Origin: Desulforhabdus amnigena
GTDB taxonomy: Bacteria; Desulfobacterota; Syntrophobacteria; Syntrophobacterales; Syntrophobacteraceae
Length of the DNA: 64,000 bases
Assembly: GCF_027925305.1 (NCBI RefSeq)
Contig: NZ_BSDR01000001.1
Location: forward strand, 1,763,001 to 1,827,000
Direction: 5' to 3'
Below the pieces are notes generated by a model, which worked only from the letters and a program-made list of their open reading frames with translations, ran no database searches and was not told where the DNA came from. Below are positions 2,733-19,303 of the stretch, piece by piece (position 1 is the first letter of the stretch; every line of letters begins with the position of its first letter). A program made the position numbers and the translations under genes.

Positions 2733-3947
2733 TTATGGGATGAAGCCGCATTTCGTCGCTTCACCATGTTCCTTCCTGACCGGCCAGTACCAGACCATCC
2801 CGTCAACCGCCATGGCTATCCCTGCCGCAATGACCGTGGAATCCAGGATTGTAAAAAGGCTCAAACCGAAGTAGCCGATAAGACCAAGACCGATACCGGC
2901 AAATGAAATGCCGGTACGTATGAAAGAGAGGCCCGTCCTGGCTCTGGCATAGATGGTGCGAAAGCACGCAAACACGGTGCGCTGAGCGGCAAGCGACGTC
3001 CTCTCATGAGCCAGGTACGAGCGTACCTTATTGTCGAGTGACGCCTCGATGTATACGCATGAATTGGGTAAAAGATCGGCCAAACGGCACAGCATGGTAC
3101 TCTTCAGGAAAGAATCCGCAGGCCTTTGTTCCACAAACTGGTAATTTTCAAGGAAATAGAGGGTTGCAGCAGTCACTTCCACCAGGGTCTCATGTTTTGG
3201 TGGGCTCAAGATGGACTTCTTGATCTTGAAATAACTGAAAAGCCCGAACAGCACAAAGAGCCCCCCCACCATGATCATCATCCAGTAAAGGGCAAGGAAT
3301 GGGCTCTGTTTGCGGATCAGCAGGAGAGTCCGGCCGATCGTAATCAATCCCAGCCCTCCACGGAGAAAGCTCAGATGAGTCCTTGCACTGGCAAAATCCG
3401 TCCGGTAGCAAGCCAATCTCGTTCTCCACCGCGCCATGGTATTCCGCCAGAATGCCAGCCCGGTTCGTTCATTCCCGATCAAATGTTCCGGATCGGCGTT
3501 CAGGAAATCCTGGATGAAGAAAAGGATTTCCTCTCTGAGTGCCACGCGGAATTCACAATGTTCGACATGCAGTGATTCCTTCACTTCGCTCATGAGCAGC
3601 TCATCGCGGGGATCCGAGGCGGCAATGATTACCCTTTCTCCCTCTCTGGCCACGGGAAACCACCCCTGCATGCAGAGCTTTTCCGGGTTCAAGCCCGCAA
3701 GAAGCTCCGGCGGCACAGGGATCCTCTCATCGTATTCAACCCACGCGCACTGATAATATTCGCCGAGGGCCTCCAGAAGCCTGCGGCGAGGGATGAGATA
3801 GTCGTAGCGGAGAATCTGTTCGATATCCGCATCCCGGTAGGCCGCGGACTCCTCTATGGACTCGAGTTCCTTTTTATCCAGCAGACCCCAGTCCAACAGG
3901 AGATGAAACCGCTCGATCTCCGAGTCAAAAGGTCTACAGGTCATCAT
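2733..3947 (-). CDS. MshEN-like N-terminus fused to two DUF202 membrane modules
   Basis: 404 residues from ATG 3947 (ATG 3944 is an alternative), overlapping the end of the upstream homologue by 14 bp. Residues 1-150 resemble the N-terminal domain of type II secretion/pilus ATPases (MshEN/T2SSE_N): a short helical unit around LLDWGLLDKKELESI, then RRRLLEALGEYYQCAWVEYD and a small alpha/beta unit (FPVAREGERVIIAASDP). Some MshEN domains bind c-di-GMP; I cannot show that here. Two DUF202 modules follow. In the first, Arg recurs at 161, 168, 175, 182, 189 and 196, exactly every seven residues, before hydrophobic helices (about 197-240). In the second it recurs at 316, 323, 330, 337 and 344 before helices at about 345-388. 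No ATPase domain is present, so this is not a secretion motor. Function unknown; the operon suggests signalling at the inner membrane. Confidence 0.75.
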   Translation of the reverse strand: MMTCRPFDSEIERFHLLLDWGLLDKKELESIEESAAYRDADIEQILRYDYLIPRRRLLEALGEYYQCAWVEYDERIPVPPELLAGLNPEKLCMQGWFPVAREGERVIIAASDPRDELLMSEVKESLHVEHCEFRVALREEILFFIQDFLNADPEHLIGNERTGLAFWRNTMARWRTRLACYRTDFASARTHLSFLRGGLGLITIGRTLLLIRKQSPFLALYWMMIMVGGLFVLFGLFSYFKIKKSILSPPKHETLVEVTAATLYFLENYQFVEQRPADSFLKSTMLCRLADLLPNSCVYIEASLDNKVRSYLAHERTSLAAQRTVFACFRTIYARARTGLSFIRTGISFAGIGLGLIGYFGLSLFTILDSTVIAAGIAMAVDGMVWYWPVRKEHGEATKCGFIP

Positions 3948-5634
3948 GGCTGAATTCAACCTTTCGCCACGTTGTTGAAGGCTTCGCGTAATCGACAAAA
4001 ACAATCTCCATGTCTCCAAGACAGTAGGAAAACTCTTCTTTCATTCTCTCAGCAGGGATATGCCAGTAAAGCCCATCAGCAATGAACGCCAGTCCGATGA
4101 CGAGCAGAACCAGATTACAGAGAGTCCAAATGGTACTGCCCAAACCAAAGTAAACGAGGAGAACCATCCCTACAGAAAAAATACTGCTCCCGGTCCGGAT
4201 GAATGCCATGCCGGTCCGTGAACGCGCCATTATCGTCCGAAGCCTTGATTTGACATTGCGTCTGTCGGCGATCAACGTTCGCTCCAGCGCCAGGCCGGTG
4301 GTGCCCCATATCCCGAGGGCATGGTCTCTGTTCAAGAATAGGGGCGGTGAAGGATGATCGGAGTTCACCTGTCTATGGAGCGGGGGAAACATGAACTCCC
4401 ATATGGAAGTCCTGTTTCTCATGTTTTGAACGGCCTTGAAACTTTCATCCCCCGCTTTTCGACCGGGGACATACCAGTGGAAACCCTCCAGCACCATGAG
4501 CGCACCGGAAAGAATGAGAAGTGCATCGAAGAGCGACCAGGGACCGGCATGGAACTGCCTGAACAAGCCGATTCCCAGTCCGATAAAAGAGACGCCGGTC
4601 CGGGTGAAAGCGAGACCGGTTCTCGCTCTTGCCATTCTTGTTCTGTAATTTGCCAGGATGGTCCGCTCTTCGGCCAGGTCGGTCCTGTCGATGGCAAGAA
4701 ACCTGCGCTTCATGACCGGAGAGAGTCTATTCCATAAAGATCGAAGTTTTTCGGCCCCCTCGACGGGAGGAGTCCGACGGAATGTTGGGGTCTCACCAGA
4801 ATAGCCGAGCTGAAGTATCGTGGTTCCAAATGTCGGTTCCGTGCCGGTGTAATCGATGCGGTTCTTATTTATTTTCCTGGCGGGGAGGTACCAGTAAACG
4901 CCATCGACTGCCATTATCACTCCTCCGACAATGAGCAACGCCTCCAGGATGGTAAGGAAACCGATACCAAAGATTCTCAACAGCACCAGCCCAATCGATA
5001 TGAAAGCAACTCCGGTACGTATGAAGGCAAGACCAGTCCGGCCTTTGCTCAGGGTAGTCCGATACTGAGCGAGCAACACCCTCTCATTTGCAAGCCAGGT
5101 GCGGAGTTTTGCAAGGCGCGTCCTCCCCGCAGAATCGGGAAAGCCCGGGTTGATGTCCCCACTGTTTTCCAGTATCCGGATTATATCCGATGGAAGGGCT
5201 ACGACTAACTTCAGGGTATCTACCCGAAGGATTCTTTTGATTGCTTCCAACAGAGATTTTTCGGCAGGATTGAAGATAACGACTTTAGCCGTACCTGCAC
5301 GAACGCCAAGAGGGCACCACAGTCTTTTCTTCAGTTCATTGAAATCGACCTGGGCTGAAAGGTTTTCGGGAACCGTAAGTTTTTCATCATATTCGATAAA
5401 AGGAAGACGATAGTGGCTGGAAAGACAGTGCAGGATGTGATGTTTCGGGATTCCCTTCGTCAGCAAGAGTCTTTCGACCTGTTCTGCGGGGCTGCGCGAT
5501 ATTCTTGAGATTTCCTCCAATTCTACCCCGGTGAGCACCCCCCTGTCGACAAGCCTCTGGAACATGGAATCTTCAACCCGAAAGACCTGGAGCTTTCCCG
5601 TCAACTCACCCTCTGTTATTCTGCCATAAGCCAT
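3934..5634 (-). CDS. MshEN-like N-terminus fused to three DUF202 membrane modules
   Basis: 566 residues, first gene of the minus-strand operon. Residues 20-155 resemble the MshEN/T2SSE_N domain of PilB/GspE (RLVDRGVLTGVELEEI; then GIPKHHILHCLSSHYRLPFIEYD; then LWCPLGV). Three DUF202 modules follow. Each has a helix with Arg (mostly Arg-Thr) every seven residues (171-206; 317-345; 452-480), then two hydrophobic helices ending in a similar phrase: AVDGVYWYLPARK, VLEGFHWYVPGRK and IADGLYWHIPAER. The repeat of the whole module, down to that closing phrase, shows internal duplication. DUF202 proteins are usually short, single-module membrane proteins of unknown function, so three modules behind a cytosolic domain is unusual. 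The ATG at 5634 has only a weak ribosome site. The next gene, a shorter paralogue, overlaps its 3' end. Confidence 0.75.
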   Translation of the reverse strand: MAYGRITEGELTGKLQVFRVEDSMFQRLVDRGVLTGVELEEISRISRSPAEQVERLLLTKGIPKHHILHCLSSHYRLPFIEYDEKLTVPENLSAQVDFNELKKRLWCPLGVRAGTAKVVIFNPAEKSLLEAIKRILRVDTLKLVVALPSDIIRILENSGDINPGFPDSAGRTRLAKLRTWLANERVLLAQYRTTLSKGRTGLAFIRTGVAFISIGLVLLRIFGIGFLTILEALLIVGGVIMAVDGVYWYLPARKINKNRIDYTGTEPTFGTTILQLGYSGETPTFRRTPPVEGAEKLRSLWNRLSPVMKRRFLAIDRTDLAEERTILANYRTRMARARTGLAFTRTGVSFIGLGIGLFRQFHAGPWSLFDALLILSGALMVLEGFHWYVPGRKAGDESFKAVQNMRNRTSIWEFMFPPLHRQVNSDHPSPPLFLNRDHALGIWGTTGLALERTLIADRRNVKSRLRTIMARSRTGMAFIRTGSSIFSVGMVLLVYFGLGSTIWTLCNLVLLVIGLAFIADGLYWHIPAERMKEEFSYCLGDMEIVFVDYAKPSTTWRKVEFSHDDL

Positions 5635-6266: not shown

Positions 6267-7094
6267 ATGTCGATTCTATTCATTTCACGCGGCACCATGT
6301 CCGGAGTCTATCAATTGGTGAAATGCCTCGTTGGACGTACGGGAATCCGCGAGGTTTCTCATGAAGATCTGACAAAAATAGTAAATCGGCATGGCGAGTT
6401 GGCAACTCGCGTGATGCAGCAGCTCGATGGCGCCATCTCGGCATACGATCAGTTCAGCAGATTGCGATGGCCCTACTGGGTTCTGATGCGACAGGCCCTG
6501 CTGGAGGAAGTTCTCGCGGACAACATGGTCTATCATGGTTACTCGGCTCATTTCCTGTTGCCGACGCTACAGCATTCCATAAAGGTTCGCATCGATGCTC
6601 CTCTCGATCTTCGAGTGAAAATGACCATGAAGCGTCTTGATTGCGATGAAAAGGCCGCTCGAGATTACATCACCAGGGCTGACGACGAGCGTGTGCGGTG
6701 GGCGCGATTCATGTACTACCGGGACGTTCGTGATCCCAAATATTACGACCTGCACATCAACTTGGGACACATGAGCCTGGATGCGATCTGTGGAATTTTG
6801 GATCGAGCCATATCGGAAAAAGAATTCCAGACCCTTCCCGAAACGAGGGCCGAGGTGGAAAGGCTTTTTCTCGCTGCATCCGTCGAGGCAGCCCTGGTAA
6901 CGGATCCACGGACCTACGATCTTGAAATCGGGGCAAAAGTTGAGGGTGCCGATGTATATCTCTCCGGTCCTTACCTTGCGGACAGGCAACTCGCAACGGT
7001 GACGGAAATTGTTGCAGGGATAGCCGGTGTTGAAAAGATCAGATACGCTCCCGGCTATGCGGCCACATTCGGCATCTTACACGGGAAATCATGA
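6267..7094 (+). CDS. Cytidylate-kinase-like protein with C-terminal BON-like domain
   Basis: 275 residues; ATG 6267 follows AGGAAGG. Residues 1-190 resemble the cytidylate-kinase-like family (Cytidylate_kin2): opening SILFISRGTMSGVYQLVKCL, the middle HSIKVRIDAPLDLRVKMTMKR (base-binding/lid helix), and DEKAARDYITRADDERVRWARFMY followed by a D-x-x-Y-Y-D-L-H-I-N strand. The opening lacks the Gly-rich phosphate loop (G-x-x-G-x-G-K) of true kinases, so activity on CMP is doubtful. Residues about 200-270 look like a BON fold (VEAALVTDPRTYDLEIGAKV, then GADVYLSGPYLADRQ and GIAGVEKI), a domain often bound to membranes or lipids. It is the first gene of the right arm, followed after 76 bp by the DUF202 heptad protein. 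A sensory, rather than metabolic, role is my inference. Confidence 0.7.
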   Translation: MSILFISRGTMSGVYQLVKCLVGRTGIREVSHEDLTKIVNRHGELATRVMQQLDGAISAYDQFSRLRWPYWVLMRQALLEEVLADNMVYHGYSAHFLLPTLQHSIKVRIDAPLDLRVKMTMKRLDCDEKAARDYITRADDERVRWARFMYYRDVRDPKYYDLHINLGHMSLDAICGILDRAISEKEFQTLPETRAEVERLFLAASVEAALVTDPRTYDLEIGAKVEGADVYLSGPYLADRQLATVTEIVAGIAGVEKIRYAPGYAATFGILHGKS

Positions 7095-7170
7095 GGGAGT
7101 GTTAAACCGTGAAGAGCCGCAAGGTTCTAATTCGCATTGTTTCCGCTCAAACTGAAGGAGCTAAAAAGTT

Positions 7171-7893
7171 ATGGATGAGGAGGAGCGTAAATTCCGCGAC
7201 GAGCTAACAGCCGCAGTGGATGCTATTCAGTCGTTACTGGAACACTCTGTGACCATCCAAGAGCAAAGCAAAGAGATCGAGAAGAAAATCCATCAGCTCG
7301 GGAAGCAAAGAACAGAAGCCACTTCAGATCTCCTTGAACACGCGAATACTGAAAATGCTCTGGCTCAGCAACGAACCGGCATGGCGCAAGAGAGGACAGC
7401 TCTTGTCCGCGAACAAACACGTCTTTCTACAAGGTCTACCGAGCTGGCAACCATTCGCACGGACTTTGCCAGAGAGAGAACCACCCTGGCCGGCCAACGT
7501 ACCGATCTGGCAGTGTTGCGGACCGATTTCTCCCGTAACAGGACCAACCTTGCGGACCAGCGAACCCATATGGCCGGTTTTCGCAGCCGGCTTTCCGAAA
7601 AGCGCACCGAATTGGCCGGCAAACGCACCATCTTCTCCAATATGCGCACGGAACTGGCTCGCGGACGCACCGATCTCGCTCTTATACGAACCGGACTGGC
7701 TTTCTTATCATTGGCCATAGCGTTTTTTCGTTTCTTTGGTCTTTCCTGGTGGTCCTTTTTTGATGGAGCCCTTGCACTAGGCAGTCTGATGATGGTGTCT
7801 GTCGGACTTGTCGGTTACTGGAGGTCGAGCCGTTCAGTCAAGATACTGGAAAGCCAAGCGGCTACAGAACAAGAGGCAGTGACGGTAAAATGA
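7171..7893 (+). CDS. DUF202 membrane protein with a 16-heptad Arg-Thr array
   Basis: 240 residues; ATG 7171 has a strong GAAGGAGC site. Residues 1-60 are a charged helix. From residue 68 to 173 the pattern R-T-x-(L/F/M)-(A/S)-x-x repeats every seven residues with no gap: Arg at 68, 75, 96, 103, 110, 117, 124, 131, 138, 145, 152, 159, 166 and 173, with Gln82 and Ser89 as the only exceptions. That would be a continuous helix of roughly 110 residues. Two hydrophobic helices (about 175-192 and 198-217) and a short basic tail follow, as in DUF202 modules. Ordinary DUF202 proteins show only about two such heptads. Codons vary between heptads, so the array is held by selection rather than recent DNA slippage. 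It shares the heptad rule with the two MshEN-DUF202 proteins of the opposite arm. Function unknown. Confidence 0.8.
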   Translation: MDEEERKFRDELTAAVDAIQSLLEHSVTIQEQSKEIEKKIHQLGKQRTEATSDLLEHANTENALAQQRTGMAQERTALVREQTRLSTRSTELATIRTDFARERTTLAGQRTDLAVLRTDFSRNRTNLADQRTHMAGFRSRLSEKRTELAGKRTIFSNMRTELARGRTDLALIRTGLAFLSLAIAFFRFFGLSWWSFFDGALALGSLMMVSVGLVGYWRSSRSVKILESQAATEQEAVTVK

Positions 7894-8319
7894 GGAAAGA
7901 GGACATTACGCTCTCAGCCCTCTCAATTTGCAGCCGTTCGCAGTATAAAATGATATTACCCCCCATGACGGGGCGGTCATAACGAAGAATGAAAAAAGGC
8001 AATGCGATGCAAGGCGACAGGGAAGGCGGGAAGCGCTCTTGAGAAGCGATATTATCATGAGCTATGAGCCTTTTTTCATATAAAATGTCAAGTTTTTCAA
8101 CTGAACGTCCGAAATGCTTTTGAGGCCGACATATGGGCCGGCATTTATCATATACTCTCGCCATGAAAACGCACCGGAATCAACAAAAACTAAGCTTCGG
8201 CCCGCGTTTCGCCTTTTTGCCGTGTCTCATTCTCCTGCGTGCGCTCCATTGGGCTTTTGCGGCAATTCGAGTTCCATGACCGGTCCGGCCCGATGCCCAT
8301 TCAAACGAGGAAATTTACA
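7894..8319. other. 426-bp intergenic region with a family C repeat
   Basis: No credible gene. It contains the family C repeat at 7962-8082, listed separately. The remaining 8083-8319 precedes the SOUL-family gene and shows nothing beyond its ribosome site at 8307-8311. Confidence 0.6.
7962..8082 (-). repeat. Dispersed intergenic repeat, family C
   Basis: About 120 bp. Read on the minus strand it starts TATATGAAAAAAGGCTCAT, then AGCTCATGATAATATCGCTT, CTCAAGAGCG, CTTCCCTGTCGCCTTGCATC, a TTGCCTTTTTTCAT stretch, TTCGTTATGACCG and CCCGTCATGGGG. The same ordered blocks occur at 37315-37441 and, shortened, at 29423-29520. Confidence 0.75.
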
Positions 8320-8967
8320 ATGAAAAACTTCCATCTGCTTTTGATCGTTATCGTGATCTTTGTCTTGGCGCTTCAGCAGGATGCGTTTTCCTACGAGACA
8401 GCATTTGAAAAAACCGCAGTGGGCGCCATAGAAGTCAAAACGCTTCCCGCCACCAGAGCGTTGGTCGCCACCGACGCCGAAGGCGATTTTTTCAAGAATC
8501 GTGACAGGCTTTTCAAGACTCTTTTCGCCTACATCAAGGAGCACGACATCAAAATGACCGTTCCCGTTGAAGGCCACATGAAACCGGCGCGGATGGTCTT
8601 TTTTCTTGGGAAACGCTATCAGGAGAGGATTCTGCCGGATCGAGGCAAAATCAAACTTGTCGAACTGCCCAAGCGAACGGTCATTGCCTTGGGAAAACGG
8701 GGAGAGTACTCGCGGGAGAATTTCACCAAGGCCAGGCTGGAACTGCAGCAATGGATGAAAAAACACCCTGAATACATAGCAACCGGTGAAGCTTACGCCG
8801 TATTCTGGAGTGCACCCTATGTCCCCCGCTTTCTCAAAAGATTTGAAGTACACGTTCCTCTCATGACCGAGGGAAGAGGCGCACCATTAATCAAAACAGA
8901 TGCGGGATGGTTTGAGGAAGTCGATTGCAGAGTCGCCGGTTCGGCTTCCGCAGGGAAAACTCCGTGA
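8320..8967 (+). CDS. Exported SOUL/HBP-family heme-binding-like protein
   Basis: 215 residues from ATG 8320, preceded by ACGAGGAAA; an upstream in-frame start would add 27 residues in front of the signal peptide. Residues 1-24 form a signal peptide (MKNFHLLLIVIVIFVLALQQ, cleavage after FS). The mature part shows the SOUL family pattern: YETAFEKTAVGAIEVKTLPATRA near the start, DIKMTVPVEG (the conserved P-V-x-x-x-M-x-x-P-V-like strand) and a C-terminal EAYAVFWSAPYVPRFLKRFEV. SOUL proteins bind heme or tetrapyrroles in eukaryotes; bacterial members are mostly uncharacterised, so the ligand here is unknown. The signal peptide places it in the periplasm. It precedes an exported ankyrin protein but nothing shows that they work together. 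Confidence 0.8.
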   Translation: MKNFHLLLIVIVIFVLALQQDAFSYETAFEKTAVGAIEVKTLPATRALVATDAEGDFFKNRDRLFKTLFAYIKEHDIKMTVPVEGHMKPARMVFFLGKRYQERILPDRGKIKLVELPKRTVIALGKRGEYSRENFTKARLELQQWMKKHPEYIATGEAYAVFWSAPYVPRFLKRFEVHVPLMTEGRGAPLIKTDAGWFEEVDCRVAGSASAGKTP

Positions 8968-9056
8968 GACATTGAAGGGTCTTCACTCCATTGGCCCGGA
9001 CCTTCAATCCAAGGAACCCTGATAATGATGAAGACAGTTCAAAGGAGTCAAAAGAG

Positions 9057-9905
9057 ATGAGGCAGGGGAAAAGATTGTTGGGTGCTTTTGTCATGTGTTG
9101 CTTTGTTTTTCTTTCCACGTCGCCGGCAATGGCGCAAAGTCAGAATGAGCCCAGAAAAAAGAGTTCCGTCAAACGAGAACAGCTCAATAACGGCTTGATC
9201 CAGGCGGCTTCTTTGGGTGATACTTCCCTGGTCGGTACCCTGATTTGCAAAGGAGCGGATGTCAATGCACGGGACGCTGAAAACATGACACCACTCATGC
9301 ATGCCGCTCTCAACGGACACGAGGACACGTTGGAATACCTGATCGATAAAGGTGCGGACCTGAACCTGGTGGATGTCTTCGGGGTCACGGCATTGATGCA
9401 GGCTTCGTGGTCCGGCCACACGAATATCGCGGAAACCTTGATATCCTATGGTGCCAACGTCAATGAGAAAAGTTCCGGACAAATCCCCAAATTGAAGAAG
9501 AAGGGGATAACGGCTCTCATGGCTGCAACGCTGACCGGTGATTACGATATGGCTCAACTTTTGGTGTCCAGGGGAGCCGATCTGGACCAGCAGGATGAAG
9601 AAGGACAGACAGCTTTGACCTATGCTGCCAAAGGCGGGTATGATCGAATTGCGAAACTCCTGCTTGCCAATGGTGCAAACATGGAGATCAGGGACCAGTT
9701 CGGGAGAACCCCTCTCATCATTGCCGCTATTCACAACAACATAGGCGTTGTAAACTCCCTCGTGAATTGCGGCGCCAACATTAACGCCAAGGATTTCAAC
9801 GACCTCACTGCCATCAGGTATGCTTCGGCATTGAGTCACGACAGGATTCACAGTCTTCTGACGCATGCCGGGGCGTCCCGTTCCGCAAGAGGTTATCGAT
9901 ATTGA
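9057..9905 (+). CDS. Exported ankyrin-repeat protein
   Basis: 282 residues from ATG 9057, which sits after AAAGGAGTC. Residues 1-26 are a signal peptide ending AMAQ. The rest is a run of about six ankyrin repeats; consensus pieces such as DAENMTPLMHAALNGHEDT, FGVTALMQASWSGHTN, EGQTALTYAAKGGYDR and FGRTPLIIAAIHNN are clear, with G-A-D/N-V/L-N turns between them. A 12-residue insert (SSGQIPKLKKKG) separates repeats three and four. Ankyrin arrays bind other proteins; periplasmic ones in bacteria are often regulators of neighbouring enzymes, but no partner is obvious here. Confidence 0.9.
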   Translation: MRQGKRLLGAFVMCCFVFLSTSPAMAQSQNEPRKKSSVKREQLNNGLIQAASLGDTSLVGTLICKGADVNARDAENMTPLMHAALNGHEDTLEYLIDKGADLNLVDVFGVTALMQASWSGHTNIAETLISYGANVNEKSSGQIPKLKKKGITALMAATLTGDYDMAQLLVSRGADLDQQDEEGQTALTYAAKGGYDRIAKLLLANGANMEIRDQFGRTPLIIAAIHNNIGVVNSLVNCGANINAKDFNDLTAIRYASALSHDRIHSLLTHAGASRSARGYRY

Positions 9906-11884: not shown

Positions 11885-14800
11885 ATGTTTTTGAGAAAAT
11901 CCATTGGCATGGCAATCGGTTTGGCACTGTTGCTGTCGGTTCTTTTGACGTTGGACGTGAAGCCCCAACCTGCAGGAGCACCCGTTCCGGACCTCGTGAA
12001 CTCGATCTGGATTGGTACATCAGAAGGGATTGTCAAGTTTTCTGGAAAAGACGGTGTAAAACTTCTTGAGATCCGAGGGTTAGGAGAAGTCCTCGCCCTT
12101 GCCATAGACGAGGAGGACGGCAGAGTCTGGGCCTTTACCGACTCCACCCTTTATGCTTACAACCGCAGAGGAGAACGACTGTCGGCAACAAGCATCCCTT
12201 CAGGTGAGAGTAACCGTATTGTCCTGGCAGTGGACCCATCAGACAGGGGCGTTTGGCTGGGAGAAGGAAAAACCTTGTATCGGCTCAATTCGCAGGGCGT
12301 CACGGAATTCATGACCCCCCTCCCCCATCTCATCGAGGCGATGTCCATGGACCCCCATCGGTCGCGCATCTGGGTGGCGACAAAAAAAGCTCTAATGGCC
12401 TATGACACCACTGGAACCCCCATCGCTTCAATTGATCCTGGAAAACAGGCCGACATCGCAGAAATCGCTTTTGAGAGCACCTCGGACAGCCTCTGGGTCG
12501 CAACTGAGCAAGACATCTACTGCTACGGAGGCGACGGAATCCTGAGGACTAAAATACAGATCGGAAAAATCGATTCCATGGTCCCGGACGGAGAAGGGGG
12601 ACTCTGGATCGCAAAAAAGAAGCTTCTCACTCGCATTGATTCCATGGGGCATGTTCTCTTTGAAGTGGAGCCTTTCAACCCAAAGGGGCATGGCACCATA
12701 GAGGCCCTCGTCCTTAACCCTTCCGATCACTCTGTATGGGGCATCGACACAAAAGTCTTGATCCATGTGAGTGAGGACGGCGCGCTACTCCATTACATGG
12801 AACCGGTTGCCAAAGAAATGGGACATCTACTGTCATTGGCCCTTTACAGTGACCTTGCTGCCCCGATCTTTAGAATCACCTCTCCCTCCGAGGAAGAATT
12901 TCTCAACACGAATACCCCAAAAATTGAGGTAAATTTCGAGGATCCTGGCTCGGGTGTGGACACATCCTCTCTTGTCTTTCAGATCAATAACATCTCCCTG
13001 AAGGTGAACTGCATTTTTGAGGAAAACGGCGCTTCGTGCACTCCCCAGAGTGTTCTTCCCGATGGTGAAACGGCATTGAGCGCTACCGTGAAGGATTTTA
13101 CGGGAAACACTGCCCATGTCACCGGTATCCGTTTTACCATTGATACGGTAAAACCCCAAATCACTGTGGAGGCCCCACGGGATGGTCTTATTACCAATCA
13201 ACCGGCTCAAGCCATCATGGGAAACGTAAATGAACCGGCAATGCTTACAGTGAACGGCCAACCAGTCACCTTTTTACAAAATCTAACATTTTCCTCCACT
13301 GTAACGCTTCAGGAGGGGAACAACACTTTTACAATCCGCGCACTGGACCGTGCTGGCAATGAACAGGAACTGCCCCTTCTAGTGACCCTCGACACCATCC
13401 CCCCTCCCCTCATCGACAGCACCCACGTGACAGTAGGGCCCGTGATAAACGGCCATGCAAGTATAGCCGGTGCAACGGGATGCTTTGAGCCCGGCATGAG
13501 GATCAAGGTGACAAACAAGGTGACTCAAGAGGCAAGGACGGTCACCGTATTCCCTGACGGCGGCTTCACGATAGACATCCCCGCCCTGTCCGGCGAGAGC
13601 GTCTCCATCGTGGTTATGGACTTAGCCGGAAATGAAAGTCCCGCACTGACCTTTATCGTGAACAGCTCGCTTCCTCCCGCTGCAAAAAAACTCCCAGAGG
13701 GAAGTTTCGGCGAAAAATACCGCTCTCTCGTGCCGGCGGACGCCACCATTGAAGAGTATTCCTCCGCAAGATTCAGCCTCATCACCGGAACTGTCTACAG
13801 TATTGACGGTTCACCTTTGCCGGAGGTGATTGTCAGCATTCTCGATCACTCCGAATACGGTACATCGATAACCAACGCCGAAGGAGAATACACACTACCG
13901 GTTGAAGGCGGTGGAATATTCACGGTCAGCTTCGTCAAAAAGGGATACCTGGAAGCGCAGCGAAAAGCATCCACGGAGTGGAACCAGATCCATACCGTGG
14001 ATGGCGTTTTTCTGCTTCAGGAGGATACGGCTTGCACTACCATAGACTTCGACGGAAACCCCGCAAGCCGTTATATCCATGTGTCGAGCGCTTACACGGA
14101 CGAAGATGGAGTGCGCAGCACTACTTTGGTTTTTTCCGGGGATACGACTGTAACGATAAAAGATACGGAAGGCAACGAATCGCCAGTGACCACTCCCATT
14201 ACCGTACGCGCTACGGAGTTTGTCAAACCGGAGACGATGCCGGCACATCTGCCTTCTACCTCCGCATATACCTTTGCTGTAGACCTCACGGTCGATGGAG
14301 TTGCACAGCGATCCCAAGTGCATTTCTCGAAACCCGTAACCATGTACGTTGACAATTTTCTCGAGTTTCCCGTGGGTGAAGTGGTACCGGTTGGCTACTA
14401 TGACCGCATCAAAGCCGTGTGGGTACCTTACGACAACGGGCTGGTCATAAAGCTTCTGGACCTCGATGGGGATGGTACGACTGATGCTCTCGACGCGAAC
14501 GGCGATGAGAGTGCAGATGACCTGAATAAAGATGGCAGCTTCGGGGATGAGGTGGCGGGTATCGCTGGCAATGGCTCTTATCAGCCAGGAAAAACCTACT
14601 GGCGTGTGAAAATTGATCACTTCACACCGTGGGATTGTAATTGGCCATGGGATTTCGAGGAGGGTGCAGTTGGACCGCCCAAGGTCATTTCTCCCCCACC
14701 CAACCAGAATGCCTGCGAGCAGAAATTGCATCCCGGTTCCACAGTCATGTGTGAGTCAGGCATTTTTGAAGAAGATATTCCGCTTCTCGGCACCGGAATG

Positions 14801-17800
14801 ACTCTCCATTATAAATCTCAAAGTGCACCGGGATATCAGTATCCCATTACCATCCCCTTGACGGAAGGTACGGTGCCGCAAATCCTCCGAAAAGTCAGGG
14901 CAAAGGTCTCGGTAGCAGGAAGGGTCTTCAATTATGAGTTGGATCCCCAACCAAATCAGAGCATCGTTGTGAACTGGGACGGATTCGATCATCTGGGACA
15001 CAGGATGAGCGGAGAGGTGCCGGTCCACGTGGAGATAAACTACGACTATCCCCTCAGGTATGCGAGTGCGGGACGGGGAGGAACTCTAGCCAGAGCTTTC
15101 GGTAATACGGGCTACAACGTTATCGCACAGCGCAATAATCAGAGTATCAGTGCATCTCTCGGTTTCGACTACGATTTGGTTATCCATGCAGGCCCCTCAC
15201 TCAACAATCAATTCGCGGAAGGCTGGACTTTATCCGAACACCATAGTTTGAGCGCTGCATCCCACACTATCTGGAAGGGGGATGGGGAAATATTGGAACC
15301 TTCCGACGCTGGATATCTCGAGGTGGTTGCAGGCGGCGGTTCGTTTAATGGTGACGGGAAATCCGGTCTTGAAACGGCCATCAGTCTTTCGCCGGGCGAT
15401 ATTAACGTGGCTGCCGACGGCAGTATTCTCTTCATTGATGGTGGCAGAAGGATCCGTTCACTGGGGCCTGACAACATCATTCGAACGATTGCCGGCAATG
15501 GCTCGGCAGCAAATCCCGGAGCCAATGACGGAGCTCTTGCCACTGAGGTGGGCCTGGGATTTCTGATGGCCTTCACCCTCGCTCCTGACGGAACCCTCTA
15601 TTTCATTGAGACGGATTCTTTCGGCCAACACAATTCCCATGTCAGACATGTGACTCCCGAAGGAAGAATAGAAACGGTCGCAAAATTTATCAGCAGCGAC
15701 ATCACAGACATTGATGCGGGACCTGATGGATCTCTCTATGTGACACGGGAGGCGGCTAATACTGTTACCAAAATCTCTCCCGACGGCAGTGTCACGGATG
15801 TCGTTTCCGTATATTACTGGCCTTGGGGCGTAAATACACGAAAGGATGGTTCGCTTTTCATATCCAGCACTTTCGGACACAAAATAGATATCATCCGTCC
15901 CTCAGGAGACCGTGAACAAATCCCCATCACCGGACCGAATGACATTTCCTGGGACAGTTTCGGAAATATGTACATCAGTACAGGTTTCTATAACAATGCC
16001 GCGGACGGCATCTATCTTTACACACCGGACGGGACCCTGCGCCGGTTATCCGGGAATGCAGGCGATCCCGCTCCCTACCCCGGTGCACCAGTCAGTAAAG
16101 TACGTATTCAGGTATCCGCCCTCTGTTACTCTGAAAAGCACGGCGGTCTACTGCTTCCCTGTGGAAGCCGCATCTATCTTCTGCGCGACAGGATTTCAAA
16201 CCGTTTCAGACAGGCACCTGGAGAAAAGGCTATCCCCGACATATCGTCATCCGTGGCTTATGTTTTTTCAGCTGATGGCAGACATACGAGAACCGTTGAC
16301 CTCGACACGGGCAAAACGCTTCTGAACTTTGGTTACGACGATCAAGACCGTTTGATTTCAGTCACCGATCGTTTTGGCAATATGACCACCATTCAACGCG
16401 ACAGTACAGGGGGCGTCACTTCCATCGTCGGTCCCGATGGAGATGTCAATCTTCTCACGGTGAGTGATGGACGTCTCGTCAGCGTGGCCTATGCCGATGG
16501 AAACAGTTACGAGTTTGCATATTCCGACACTGGATTGATGACCCGCAAAACCGACCCCAATGGGGGACGGTTTGAGTATAGTTATGACGGACATGGCCGT
16601 GTTTATCTCACCCGGGATGCTGTGGGGGCACTCACTCGCTTCGCTGTAACAACAGATGGCGACAAGCTAACTGCCGCTACTACTGACGCAGAAGGACGTT
16701 CCAGCTTCAGCCTCTTCAGGAAAGGAGCTACGGAAAGCAGCTATCACGAATGGAGGGACAAAGCGGGTCTTTCAACCATCATAGAGACTGACCCCTATGG
16801 ATTGAAAGAAATATTCCACTCTCCCGAAGGCACTGTTTCTACCTTTCTTTACGCCAGCGATCCCCTTTATGGTACCCGGCGCACTCAATCAACAACCACT
16901 CGGTTTCCCTCGGGTATCACATCTCTTACCGAATATGCCGTGAACTACACTGACAGCGATAAAAACGGGATCCTGGAAGCAACCAGCCACACTCAAAGCC
17001 TGAACGGAAAAAGTTATTTTACACGAAAGGACCTGACGCACGCCAGTGTGACAACGACCACCCCGGCAGGACGCACTACAACCACACAGTATGATCCTGA
17101 TACTCTATTGATGCGACAAATCGAAATGGCAGGGATCGAGCCGGTCCGTTTCACATATGACCCGCAGGGCCGGTTGACGGAAATCAGCCAGGGCGAAGGG
17201 GAGACCCTGCGTCGCACTACCCTTTCCTATAATTCTCAGGGCAGGATCGAAATGTTGAGTGATGCCCTGAACAGGACTGTGGGATTTGAGTATGATGCGG
17301 TCGGAAATGTTACGAGCAAGACTCTGCCTCACGGAGAGAAGATCAGCTTCACTTATGACGCCATAGGCAATCTCACCTCTATTACCCCTCCAGGACATTT
17401 CATCCACGTATTTCGCTATACTCCAGTGGACCTTACAGAGGAATACGCACCGCCGGATGTGGGCACGGGTATAGAAAGCACCCTTTATTCGTATAATCTG
17501 GATAAGCAACTCAGCTCCATTACCCGACCGGACGGCAAAAAAGTCCTCCTCTCCTACGACGCGGGCGGGAGACTCGGTACCGTCCAGTTCTCCCGCGGAC
17601 AGTTGAGCTATAGCTATTCACCAACTGGCCAGTTGGCTTCCATAGCGACCCCCGAGGGGATCACACTGGCTTATTTGTACGATGGACCATTAATGACCGT
17701 CGAGAGCTGGTCGGGAGAGATCTCGGGAAGCATCACGCGCAGCTATGATAACAACTTGCGTATCACAGGGCTCGCCTTGCAAGGCATACCCATCAACTTC

Positions 17801-19303
17801 CAATACGATGTCGATGGACTGCTGGCCCACGCGGGGAGTCTGACACTCACACGGAACGCCCAAAACGGCCTTGTCACCGGCACCTCTTTAGAGAATACCA
17901 GCACGACTCACGGTTACAACGAGTTTGGAGAACCCGAAAGCTTTGAGGTGTTCTGCCAGGGTGAACTTTTATATGGCGTTCAATATAGCCGCGACCGGCT
18001 GGGGCGCATCAGTGAAAAAACCGAATCCTTGGCAGGAGAGACAACGGCTTATGCTTATACATATGACACGGCCGGCCGCATCAAGGAAGTCCAACGTGAC
18101 GGAACCACGGTCGCCATGTACACTTACGATGCAAACGGCAACCGCTTGAGTTACACTGGGACACTGGGAGTGGACAGCGCCGATTATGACCGCCAGGACC
18201 GTCTTACGCGGTATGGCGCCACAACCTACAGTTACAGCGCCAGCGGTGACCTGGAAAGCAAGACCGAAGGGACCGATACTACGAGCTACAGCTACGATGA
18301 GTTCGGCAACCTCCTTGCCGTTGTCTTGCCAAACGGCAACTGCGTTGAGTACCTCATTGACGGGCGCAACCGCCGCATCGGCAAGAAAGTCAACGGCGTT
18401 CTCGCTCAGGGCTTCCTGTACCAGGATCCGCTCAACCCCATTGCCGAGCTGGACGGCAACGGCAATCTCATCACCCGTTTTGTCTACGGTAGCCATCTCA
18501 ACGCACCCGACTACATGATCAAAGGCGGGACCACCTACCGCATCATTTCCGATCAGACAGGCAGTCCGAGACTGGTCGTGAACGCTCTCACCGGCGAGGT
18601 TGCTCAAAGAATCGATTACGATGTCTTCGGCAAAATCCTTCTCGATACAAACCCGGGATTCCAGCCTTTCGGCTTTGCCGGAGGCCTCTACGACCGGGAC
18701 ACAGGCCTTGTGAGATTCGGATACAGAGATTATGATCCGGATACCGGCAGGTGGACCGCAAAGGATCCTATCCTCTTCCGGGGCGGGGATACGAACCTGT
18801 ATGGGTATGTCCTGGGTGATCCGGTGAATTGGGTGGATCCATCAGGATTGCAGAGACCTGTCAGAGATCCCAGTGATATCGTCAATGCAGGACCGCTCGT
18901 CGGTGGTGGTAGCCGGTCGTCAGTAGGTAAAAGTATACCATCGATAAGAACACCTTGGGGTATTGCAACACAAAGCAGTAGTGAGGCAGCCTTGGCTTCA
19001 CGTGCTCAGGTGGAGGGAGGGGCAACTCTCTATCGAACTGGGACAACAGGGAGAAGTGCTGCATGCGAAGCTCAGTTTTGGGCTCTAGAGCATCCCTCGA
19101 CACCGGGTTTTGCAGGAAGATATGGTATACCACCTGAAAATGTTGCAGGTGCTAACTTTATCGAAGCTGCAACCCTGAAACCAGGTACACCGTTCATAAC
19201 GAGACCAGCACCAGGTTTTGGAACCAATCCTGGCGGGGGTATTGAAGTGGTCGTGCCAGAACATGGCATCATTTTAAAATATTTTAGCATTATAGGGGAA
19301 TGA
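11885..19303 (+). CDS. Giant exported Rhs/YD-repeat polymorphic toxin
   Basis: 2472 residues; ATG 11885 follows AGGAGG. Order: signal peptide (1-31); beta-propeller-like repeats (about 40-320, NSIWIGTSEGIVKFSG, RVWAFTDSTLYAYNRRG); Ig-like repeats (about 325-590); a carboxypeptidase-regulatory-like fold (about 635-700); a Ca-binding-looking DLDGDGTTDALDANGDES; a second NHL-type propeller (about 1140-1400); some 700 residues of YD repeats (for example YSYDGHGRVYLTRD); and the Rhs core end GYRDYDPDTGRWTAKDPI with DPVNWVDPSGL near 2280-2322. The last 150 residues are the variable toxin tip. YD repeats build a shell that encloses the tip. It uses the general secretory route by its signal peptide; no type VI genes are in view. 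A small downstream gene probably encodes immunity. Confidence 0.93.
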   Translation: MFLRKSIGMAIGLALLLSVLLTLDVKPQPAGAPVPDLVNSIWIGTSEGIVKFSGKDGVKLLEIRGLGEVLALAIDEEDGRVWAFTDSTLYAYNRRGERLSATSIPSGESNRIVLAVDPSDRGVWLGEGKTLYRLNSQGVTEFMTPLPHLIEAMSMDPHRSRIWVATKKALMAYDTTGTPIASIDPGKQADIAEIAFESTSDSLWVATEQDIYCYGGDGILRTKIQIGKIDSMVPDGEGGLWIAKKKLLTRIDSMGHVLFEVEPFNPKGHGTIEALVLNPSDHSVWGIDTKVLIHVSEDGALLHYMEPVAKEMGHLLSLALYSDLAAPIFRITSPSEEEFLNTNTPKIEVNFEDPGSGVDTSSLVFQINNISLKVNCIFEENGASCTPQSVLPDGETALSATVKDFTGNTAHVTGIRFTIDTVKPQITVEAPRDGLITNQPAQAIMGNVNEPAMLTVNGQPVTFLQNLTFSSTVTLQEGNNTFTIRALDRAGNEQELPLLVTLDTIPPPLIDSTHVTVGPVINGHASIAGATGCFEPGMRIKVTNKVTQEARTVTVFPDGGFTIDIPALSGESVSIVVMDLAGNESPALTFIVNSSLPPAAKKLPEGSFGEKYRSLVPADATIEEYSSARFSLITGTVYSIDGSPLPEVIVSILDHSEYGTSITNAEGEYTLPVEGGGIFTVSFVKKGYLEAQRKASTEWNQIHTVDGVFLLQEDTACTTIDFDGNPASRYIHVSSAYTDEDGVRSTTLVFSGDTTVTIKDTEGNESPVTTPITVRATEFVKPETMPAHLPSTSAYTFAVDLTVDGVAQRSQVHFSKPVTMYVDNFLEFPVGEVVPVGYYDRIKAVWVPYDNGLVIKLLDLDGDGTTDALDANGDESADDLNKDGSFGDEVAGIAGNGSYQPGKTYWRVKIDHFTPWDCNWPWDFEEGAVGPPKVISPPPNQNACEQKLHPGSTVMCESGIFEEDIPLLGTGMTLHYKSQSAPGYQYPITIPLTEGTVPQILRKVRAKVSVAGRVFNYELDPQPNQSIVVNWDGFDHLGHRMSGEVPVHVEINYDYPLRYASAGRGGTLARAFGNTGYNVIAQRNNQSISASLGFDYDLVIHAGPSLNNQFAEGWTLSEHHSLSAASHTIWKGDGEILEPSDAGYLEVVAGGGSFNGDGKSGLETAISLSPGDINVAADGSILFIDGGRRIRSLGPDNIIRTIAGNGSAANPGANDGALATEVGLGFLMAFTLAPDGTLYFIETDSFGQHNSHVRHVTPEGRIETVAKFISSDITDIDAGPDGSLYVTREAANTVTKISPDGSVTDVVSVYYWPWGVNTRKDGSLFISSTFGHKIDIIRPSGDREQIPITGPNDISWDSFGNMYISTGFYNNAADGIYLYTPDGTLRRLSGNAGDPAPYPGAPVSKVRIQVSALCYSEKHGGLLLPCGSRIYLLRDRISNRFRQAPGEKAIPDISSSVAYVFSADGRHTRTVDLDTGKTLLNFGYDDQDRLISVTDRFGNMTTIQRDSTGGVTSIVGPDGDVNLLTVSDGRLVSVAYADGNSYEFAYSDTGLMTRKTDPNGGRFEYSYDGHGRVYLTRDAVGALTRFAVTTDGDKLTAATTDAEGRSSFSLFRKGATESSYHEWRDKAGLSTIIETDPYGLKEIFHSPEGTVSTFLYASDPLYGTRRTQSTTTRFPSGITSLTEYAVNYTDSDKNGILEATSHTQSLNGKSYFTRKDLTHASVTTTTPAGRTTTTQYDPDTLLMRQIEMAGIEPVRFTYDPQGRLTEISQGEGETLRRTTLSYNSQGRIEMLSDALNRTVGFEYDAVGNVTSKTLPHGEKISFTYDAIGNLTSITPPGHFIHVFRYTPVDLTEEYAPPDVGTGIESTLYSYNLDKQLSSITRPDGKKVLLSYDAGGRLGTVQFSRGQLSYSYSPTGQLASIATPEGITLAYLYDGPLMTVESWSGEISGSITRSYDNNLRITGLALQGIPINFQYDVDGLLAHAGSLTLTRNAQNGLVTGTSLENTSTTHGYNEFGEPESFEVFCQGELLYGVQYSRDRLGRISEKTESLAGETTAYAYTYDTAGRIKEVQRDGTTVAMYTYDANGNRLSYTGTLGVDSADYDRQDRLTRYGATTYSYSASGDLESKTEGTDTTSYSYDEFGNLLAVVLPNGNCVEYLIDGRNRRIGKKVNGVLAQGFLYQDPLNPIAELDGNGNLITRFVYGSHLNAPDYMIKGGTTYRIISDQTGSPRLVVNALTGEVAQRIDYDVFGKILLDTNPGFQPFGFAGGLYDRDTGLVRFGYRDYDPDTGRWTAKDPILFRGGDTNLYGYVLGDPVNWVDPSGLQRPVRDPSDIVNAGPLVGGGSRSSVGKSIPSIRTPWGIATQSSSEAALASRAQVEGGATLYRTGTTGRSAACEAQFWALEHPSTPGFAGRYGIPPENVAGANFIEAATLKPGTPFITRPAPGFGTNPGGGIEVVVPEHGIILKYFSIIGE
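18850..19303 (+). other. Polymorphic C-terminal toxin tip of the Rhs protein
   Basis: Residues about 2322-2472, after the conserved D-P-S-G-L end of the Rhs core. The tip has YRTGTTGRSAACEAQFWALE, GRYGIPPENV, NFIEAATLKPGTPFITR and NPGGGIEVVVPEHG. The arrangement (Y-R near the start, a Q-F-W strand, a Gly-rich I-E-V-V-V strand at the end) resembles ADP-ribosyltransferase-type tips such as the EF-Tu-modifying TreTu toxin, but this is recognition by eye and could be wrong. The tip and the following gene look richer in A/T than the Rhs body, consistent with tip exchange. Confidence 0.5.

Follow-up and report, generated by a model that had tools for sequence, protein, structure and literature searches.

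Genes at the locus

The gene considered here, P0001, lies in a stretch of 64,000 nucleotides from Desulforhabdus amnigena, hereafter called the window (contig NZ_BSDR01000001.1, positions 1,763,001 to 1,827,000). It occupies positions 7171-7893 of the forward strand and encodes a protein of 240 amino acids, in which translation, Pfam and a structure model place an N-terminal helix, 16 arginine heptads, and a DUF202 two-helix hairpin. Directly upstream on the same strand is P0004 (6267-7094), which has a Cytidylate_kin2-like Pfam match and a BON match under the BON cut-off. A homologue of P0004 is also found directly upstream of P0001-type genes at five related loci. On the other side of P0001, the forward strand carries genes for a SOUL heme-binding protein (8239-8967) and an ankyrin-repeat protein (8991-9905), and further on an open frame of 2472 aa (11885-19303) that appears by eye to be Rhs/YD-repeat-like.

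The reverse strand carries two further DUF202 genes. According to Pfam and the structure model, P0002 (566 aa, 3934-5634) consists of an MshEN domain and three heptad-headed DUF202 hairpins, while P0003 (2733-4019) has, according to Pfam, an MshEN domain and two such hairpins. The frame of P0003 opens at TTG, and the real start is probably a methionine near 3947. The copies of DUF202 in P0002, P0003 and P0001 thus number three, two and one, and the scores for P0002 and P0003 are 48.7 and 34.1 bits, with a cut-off of 23.4. MshEN (PF05157) reaches its Pfam score in both proteins and is also recognised by fold in P0002, where residues 20-159 resemble the MshEN of PilB/MshE/GspE ATPases (Z 13.5 to 5htl). 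Unlike in those ATPases, MshEN is followed in P0002 and P0003 by DUF202 units, and the ATPase is absent.

Downstream of P0003, and also on the reverse strand, Pfam identifies a histidine kinase (HAMP, HisKA, HATPase_c; 1301-2806) and then a lone response-regulator receiver domain (949-1314). Both belong to the divergent neighbouring operon, on the strand opposite to P0001. No PPDK_N/PEP-utilizer gene lies within the window, although such genes are present elsewhere in the same genome, where 13 PPDK_N match places fall in about ten open frames (L227-L234).

The arginine array of P0001

The array of P0001, with the unit R-T-x-L-A-x-x, spans residues 68-179 (7372-7707, forward strand) when heptads are counted on the translation, and runs straight into the DUF202 transmembrane hairpin. 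The original prediction, made from the sequence of the window, had described a ladder from residue 68 to 173 in steps of seven, with 14 arginines, one glutamine and one serine. This description is exact, and the heptad observation is confirmed: position 68+7k (k=0-15, R68 to R173) holds arginine in 14 of 16 cases, the exceptions being Q82 and S89. R47, further upstream, shares the phase of the array, which extends to 19 heptads under a looser rule that tolerates two successive non-Arg heptads. When the whole protein was shuffled 20,000 times, the best 16-step ladder contained at most nine arginines, and shuffling the array alone in place gave at most ten, versus the real 14.

The DUF202 match covers residues 159-221 (7645-7833, forward strand), that is, the last heptads, TM1 with the in-phase R173 and R187, and TM2. 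At 24.5 bits its Pfam score is barely above the cut-off of 23.4; the RTxLAxxRT head leads into TM1, as is characteristic of members of DUF202 (PF02656). A search of PDB sequences with P0001 alone gave kinesin coiled coils (E 0.3-0.4), and the NCBIfam matches were to coiled-coil proteins, all far under their cut-offs. A single-alpha-helix (ER/K) domain was considered for the array and rejected, since only about one third of the residues are charged (34/105) and Leu, Met or Phe recurs at each seventh residue.

Divergence of the repeat units

The DNA of the 16 units has diverged considerably. Their mean identity is 0.49, with codon third positions at 0.325 and second positions at 0.64, and the longest exact in-register match between units is 8 nt. 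Tandem Repeats Finder, applied to window positions 7000-8000 at a score of 30, found no repeat. Near-identical units, which would have pointed to recent slippage, were therefore not encountered at this locus.

A same-genus orthologue, which is 80% identical, carries 0, 1, 6, 0, 0, 5 and 1 amino-acid substitutions relative to P0001 at positions 1 to 7 of the heptad (of 16 each), while synonymous changes number 5-7 at each position. The Arg, Leu and Ala/Ser positions are therefore under selection. At the level of sequence, the comparison shows the 16 heptads of P0001 to be under purifying selection. The earlier proposal that codons vary between units while the pattern is kept by selection thus holds, both in the low identity of third positions and in same-genus changes that spare Arg, Leu and Ala.

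Heptad number and profile in relatives

P0001-type genes were sought in 395 genomes of the phylum, 22 of which had a match at E <=1e-6 with the two-gene (P0002/P0003) type included, and in 59 relatives, 19 of which had a match at E <=0.001, a few of these being spurious. In total, 21 P0001-type genes were counted and 16, including that of the window, were complete enough for use. The others were set aside because of an internal stop (G020), a contig edge (G040), a sister relationship to G041 (G043) or fragmentation (G045 and G236). Matches in G037 (L022, L034) were also left out, as they are readings of an RSEVRGP-type DNA repeat. These repeats are long, readable in several frames, and unrelated to DUF202.

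Heptads were counted in a single phase, such that a shift ends the count, and up to two successive non-Arg heptads were tolerated. The original prediction had proposed counting heptads in homologues, and the number does vary, from 12 to 38 across the 16 proteins. All 15 relatives of the window's protein are heptadic, and relatives devoid of the period, which would have spoken against a function, were not found. The period of seven is unbroken in arrays of 12 to 38 heptads, as expected of a left-handed coiled coil. The longest array has arginine in 38 of 38 heptads, and nine of the 16 arrays have no non-Arg heptad at all. The two exceptions in P0001, Q82 and S89, reappear as a QTxxS/STxLA pair in six of the 15 relatives.

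The 300 heptads of the 16 proteins have R in 276 at position 1, T in 256 at position 2, L in 230 at position 4, and A in 227 or S in 60 at position 5. The remaining three, positions 3, 6 and 7, vary (entropy of 3.3-3.6 bits versus 0.6-1.4 elsewhere in the heptad), and acids are common at 3 and 6, on the outside. The net charge is positive in all 16 arrays. It amounts to only +0.25 to +1.3 per heptad, so the arginines may be partly paired with acids.

The window's array and those of three close relatives, counted in the same way, have 16, 16, 14 and 14 heptads. Two relatives with long arrays contain repeat units of 42-105 bp that are 72-80% alike. Together with the whole-heptad differences, these units show that arrays gain, by duplication, or lose several heptads at once. 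Among viral contigs, none of 12 pattern matches to the array was confirmed, and a phage search gave no match.

The paired DUF202 genes

The best 80 of 94 P0002-type loci, which contain 82 P0002-type ORFs, are distributed over Deltaproteobacteria/Desulfobacterota, Nitrospirota and Actinobacteria. Within these best 80 of 94, a P0002-type gene is followed by a P0003-type gene at 76 loci. A kinase and receiver come next among recognised genes at 58 of the 80, and a PPDK_N/PEP-utilizer enzyme follows them at 35, with some loci cut short by contig edges. Also frequent in the same best 80 of 94 are genes for a sigma-54 regulator (33), TauE (31), Alph_Pro_TM (30) and Usp (26).

The copy number of DUF202 is similarly stable at the best 80 of 94 loci, with three copies in 79 of 82 P0002-type ORFs and two in 71 of 76 P0003-type ORFs. 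The remaining ORFs are cut or split, or else have the motif under the HMM threshold (three actinobacterial P0003). One locus (L101:6229-9692) breaks the 3+2 arrangement with two tandem P0002-type genes before one P0003-type gene. At another (L136:9586-12201), a single frame of 872 aa with both DUF202 and kinase matches replaces P0003 and the kinase, possibly as a natural fusion or through a lost stop.

Each of the five units is headed by its own short array, all on the reverse strand of the window. In P0002, the first (4999-5124) has arginines 171, 178, 185, 192, 199 and 206, the second (4582-4707) arginines 310, 317, 324, 331, 338 and 345, and the third (4177-4281) arginines 452, 459, 466, 473 and 480. 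In an alignment of 69 P0002-type ORFs and the window's own (A3, 70 rows), all six places of the first array are arginine in every one of the 70 rows, whereas those of the second are arginine in 65 to 70 rows and those of the third in 69 or 70. The arrays of P0003 place arginine at every seventh residue from 185 to 220 (3342-3467) and from 333 to 368 (2898-3023), and it is present in 66 to 73 and 68 to 73 of 73 rows, respectively. The in-phase arginines per unit are therefore 6, 6 and 5 in P0002 and 6 and 6 in P0003. Over the 70 rows, the 17 in-phase arginines of P0002 are on average 99.2% conserved, versus 42% for the 35 other arginines, and they make up 12 of the 47 invariant columns.

A reading of 55 genomes of the class found a P0001-type gene in nine (two as fragments) and the 3+2 pair in eight. 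Both occur together in three of the 55, so neither the P0001-type gene nor the pair requires the other.

Association with two-component genes

A kinase of the same type lies directly downstream of four of the 16 P0001-type genes (L061, L065, L066, L068), and a receiver comes next in three of these cases. Four other P0001-type proteins (L063, L064, L067, L070) themselves end in a receiver domain, and a PPDK-like gene directly follows each. The other eight genes, including that of the window, lack both a fused receiver and an immediately adjacent kinase; in L071, L072 and L075, kinase-like genes are found at a distance of a few genes. The fusion of a receiver to P0001-type proteins suggests the DUF202 protein as the target of the receiver.

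In L065, a protein with 29 heptads is encoded amid kinase, receiver, PPDK-like, Alph_Pro_TM, TauE and Usp genes. These are the surroundings of the 3+2 pair, and no pair is present within the 15 kb covered. The TauE, Alph_Pro_TM, PPDK-like and Usp genes that L065:3259-13568 shares with P0002/P0003 neighbourhoods hint at a link to sulfur compounds or stress. Two further neighbour families recur and have no Pfam match.

Helix geometry

AlphaFold2 predicts for P0001, from its single sequence, one helix over residues 3-189 and a second over 193-237 (mean pLDDT 87.5, pTM 0.39); given the single-sequence input and this pTM, only the helices of the model are to be trusted. The P0002 model, based on 70 rows, has a pLDDT of 85.6 and a pTM of 0.81, and each of its three units has array and TM1 joined in a single helix. 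In both models, each DUF202 unit comprises this joint helix plus one more.

A straight helix has 3.6 residues per turn, on which a heptad stripe drifts by about 20 degrees per heptad. Because the 3.5-residue period is strict over up to 38 heptads, the array is better explained by a left-handed coiled coil than by a straight lone helix. The original prediction had placed the arginine ladder on one face of an amphipathic helix. The face that carries the ladder is conserved and apolar, not polar, a point that this prediction missed, as it did the context provided by the neighbouring 3+2 pair and two-component genes. On a coiled-coil helix, Arg is flanked by Leu and Ala at about 51 degrees on either side, the apolar direction (Arg excluded) is 10 degrees from Arg, and the centre of conservation is 31 degrees off, between Arg and Ala. 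Bundles of two to six helices built with Crick geometry gave their best fit when Arg pointed no more than 35 degrees away from the axis, and no number of helices is favoured.

A further feature that the original prediction missed is that the heptad phase is carried through TM1. In the P0001 type, R173 and R187 are conserved in all 16 proteins, and the position between them, 180, is A, S or T in 15 of 16. The corresponding places in domain 1 of P0002 have R206 in 70 of 70 rows, T/A/S in 63 and R/K in 64. The outer basic residue is absent from P0002 domain 3, whereas in P0003 it is R in 36 of 73 rows of unit 1, and in unit 2 the commonest residue is K (12 of 73), tied with S.

Ordinary DUF202 proteins and the origin of the array

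We know of no established mechanism for DUF202 outside the eukaryotic VTC complex. Escherichia coli YidH is a member of Pfam PF02656. In two papers (PMC10299036, PMC4054840), YidH figures as a candidate D-alanine exporter that transport did not confirm, and the deletion strain as peroxide-sensitive. DUF202 is present in 24 of 148 genomes of the phylum and in four of 14 control genomes. Across the window's genome, a DUF202 search at E 0.001 hits five places and no others; P0002 accounts for three of them, P0003 and P0001 for one each.

The 27 DUF202 loci of the phylum, minus two array proteins, provide a set of 25 ordinary DUF202 proteins. These share the head R-x-x-x-A-x-E-R-T-x-L-A-x-x-R-T, but are short, three-helix by eye, and devoid of a long array. 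The in-phase basic residues up to TM1 number three in 16 of them, four in six and two in three, and K or R occupies the outer TM1 place (the equivalent of R187 in P0001) in 21 of 25. Since relatives of P0001 have 12-38 heptads versus two to four in ordinary DUF202, the array looks like a DUF202 head copied many times, as had been proposed from the window alone. A DUF202 protein with five heptads (L021, in G010) stands between the ordinary and long-array forms.

Ten heptads also precede DUF202 in two plasmid-encoded proteins. In the Leptolyngbya protein (WP_225907736.1; L235:4013-5455), DUF202 differs in being fused to an SBF (bile acid symporter family) transporter domain, and the gene stands beside three further DUF202 genes. 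In the Neorhizobium protein (WP_037145520.1), the unit differs, being RTxLS/RTxMS. No kinase annotation was found near either array in the stretches examined. These plasmid arrays indicate that expansion of the DUF202 head may have taken place on more than one occasion.

Comparison with the VTC complex

When the DUF202 profile was compared with the PDB, chains of Vtc1 were the top four of 21 matches, all weak (E 0.0036-0.0077). In the 8i6v alignment, Arg at residue 31 falls on the heptad Arg, as counted from the alignment, and the VTC membrane domain (Vtc1 and the C-termini of Vtc3/Vtc4) has a DUF202-type head, ANERTFLSW, on the heptad Arg. According to the VTC paper (PMC9911596), VTC is a 3:1:1 pentamer with a channel made of five TM1 helices. 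The lining includes K24 and R31 of Vtc1 and K622 and R629 of Vtc4, pairs seven apart, and two phosphates sit at the cytoplasmic entrance. Basic residues seven apart on TM1, which line the pore in VTC (PMC9911596), are thus shared with the proteins described here.

There are also clear differences. VTC subunits have three transmembrane helices in that account (PMC9911596), as opposed to two per unit predicted here; the proteins described here have 16 (up to 38) heptads and no polymerase domain; and the neighbours P0002 and P0003 fuse three and two units in tandem. Foldseek and VIA searches with the whole P0002 model were headed by MshEN chains, after which came helical proteins of unrelated kinds; the matches listed include no chain of VTC.

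Neither the VTC polymerase (PF09359) nor PPK1 or PPK2 has a match in the window's genome; the same searches were positive in three, seven and eight of 14 control genomes. This weakens the case for polyphosphate, the substance carried by the yeast VTC channel, as cargo; on these genome searches it is unlikely in the window's organism.

A model for the array

The evidence allows a tentative model, to which we assign a probability of about 0.45, and in which we infer the oligomer, the anion and the transport alike. P0001 would be a parallel, probably pentameric coiled-coil stalk, whose arginine rings extend the entrance of an anion pore under the control of a phosphorelay. A parallel, probably pentameric bundle is suggested by the 3.5-residue period, the Arg-centred apolar face, the phase of TM1 and the Vtc1 match.

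P0001 would be a membrane-anchored rod, in which array and TM1 are predicted to be one continuous helix that leads to a second transmembrane helix, and both termini to be cytosolic. Several copies would wind into a parallel coiled coil, left-handed as the 3.5 period implies. Arg, between Leu on one flank and Ala/Ser on the other, would point into the core, and with about five helices this core would become a lumen lined with stacked arginine rings. These rings would prolong the basic ring of a VTC-like DUF202 pore into a longer cytosolic vestibule for anions; alternatively, the array might be an anion-stabilised stalk on the pore. P0002 and P0003 would build the same structure from five tandem DUF202 units, with five to six rings instead of 16; a ring of five adjacent helices would call for just such a set of five units, with 6, 6, 5, 6 and 6 arginines. 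The histidine kinase and receiver, whether operon-encoded or fused, would set the state of the DUF202 protein.

A bolder generalisation is that these proteins constitute a bacterial anion conduit, with the arginine-ringed DUF202 entrance stretched by heptad copying into a cytosolic tube of 12-38 rings (about 12-40 nm), occurring also as a gene-fused 3+2 pseudo-pentamer, and gated by phosphorylation of the receiver. As a whole, this proposition is rather unlikely.

A serious rival, quite possible if not probable, is that the array is a plain coiled-coil spacer or signalling rod, which keeps partners at a fixed distance from the membrane or transmits a twist to a kinase. Core arginines would then set the register and the number of helices, paired with acids, and no anion would be conducted. 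Variable array length (12-38 heptads), the two-component partners and receiver fusion, and the frequent acids at outer positions 3 and 6 would all fit such a rod. However, arginine in 276 of 300 heptads seems to exceed what a coiled coil needs, and a rod does not account for arginine at both ends of TM1, in the same phase, in P0001-type proteins.

Among the roles first suggested for the array, an oligomerisation stalk, which is retained in the coiled-coil stalk favoured here, fares best. An amphipathic helix lying flat on the membrane, with its arginines on lipid head groups, has only a slim chance. The Arg/Leu content and the adjoining membrane anchor would suit it, but such a helix needs 3.6 residues per turn and the ladder holds 3.5 over up to 38 heptads, such that the drift would carry the stripe about twice round the helix. 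Furthermore, the arginines sit inside the apolar face and not at its border.

Equally improbable is a membrane-tethered binder of nucleic acid or the nucleoid. The positive net charge of all 16 arrays is in its favour, as is a UvrD-like helicase encoded close to the array at L061 and L068, whose two genomes belong to the same genus. However, the annotated recurrent neighbours are kinase, receiver, PPDK-like, TauE, Alph_Pro_TM, Usp, ETF and sigma-54 regulator genes, and mixed or acidic residues fill the three variable positions on the outside. This suggestion therefore finds little support. Neutral, slippage-driven growth of a functionless array is hardly credible: the similar 42-105 bp units in two relatives show that arrays grow by multi-heptad duplication, but the window's units differ at silent sites with R, L and A fixed, and the in-phase arginines of P0002 far exceed its other arginines in conservation.

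Implications for the DUF202 family

In titles and opening lines of abstracts, the literature on DUF202 with heptads or coiled coils does not describe the array, and a narrow literature search for pentameric coiled coils with an arginine or anion lumen found nothing. To our knowledge, core-arginine arrays this long and regular are unlike any known coiled coil, and a structure could show how a bundle of helices accommodates them. Whether bacterial DUF202 builds a pentameric pore can be put to a natural test in the 3+2 pair. The SBF fusion in Leptolyngbya connects DUF202 with a transporter, and the fused receivers offer a clue as to what a DUF202 pore may respond to.
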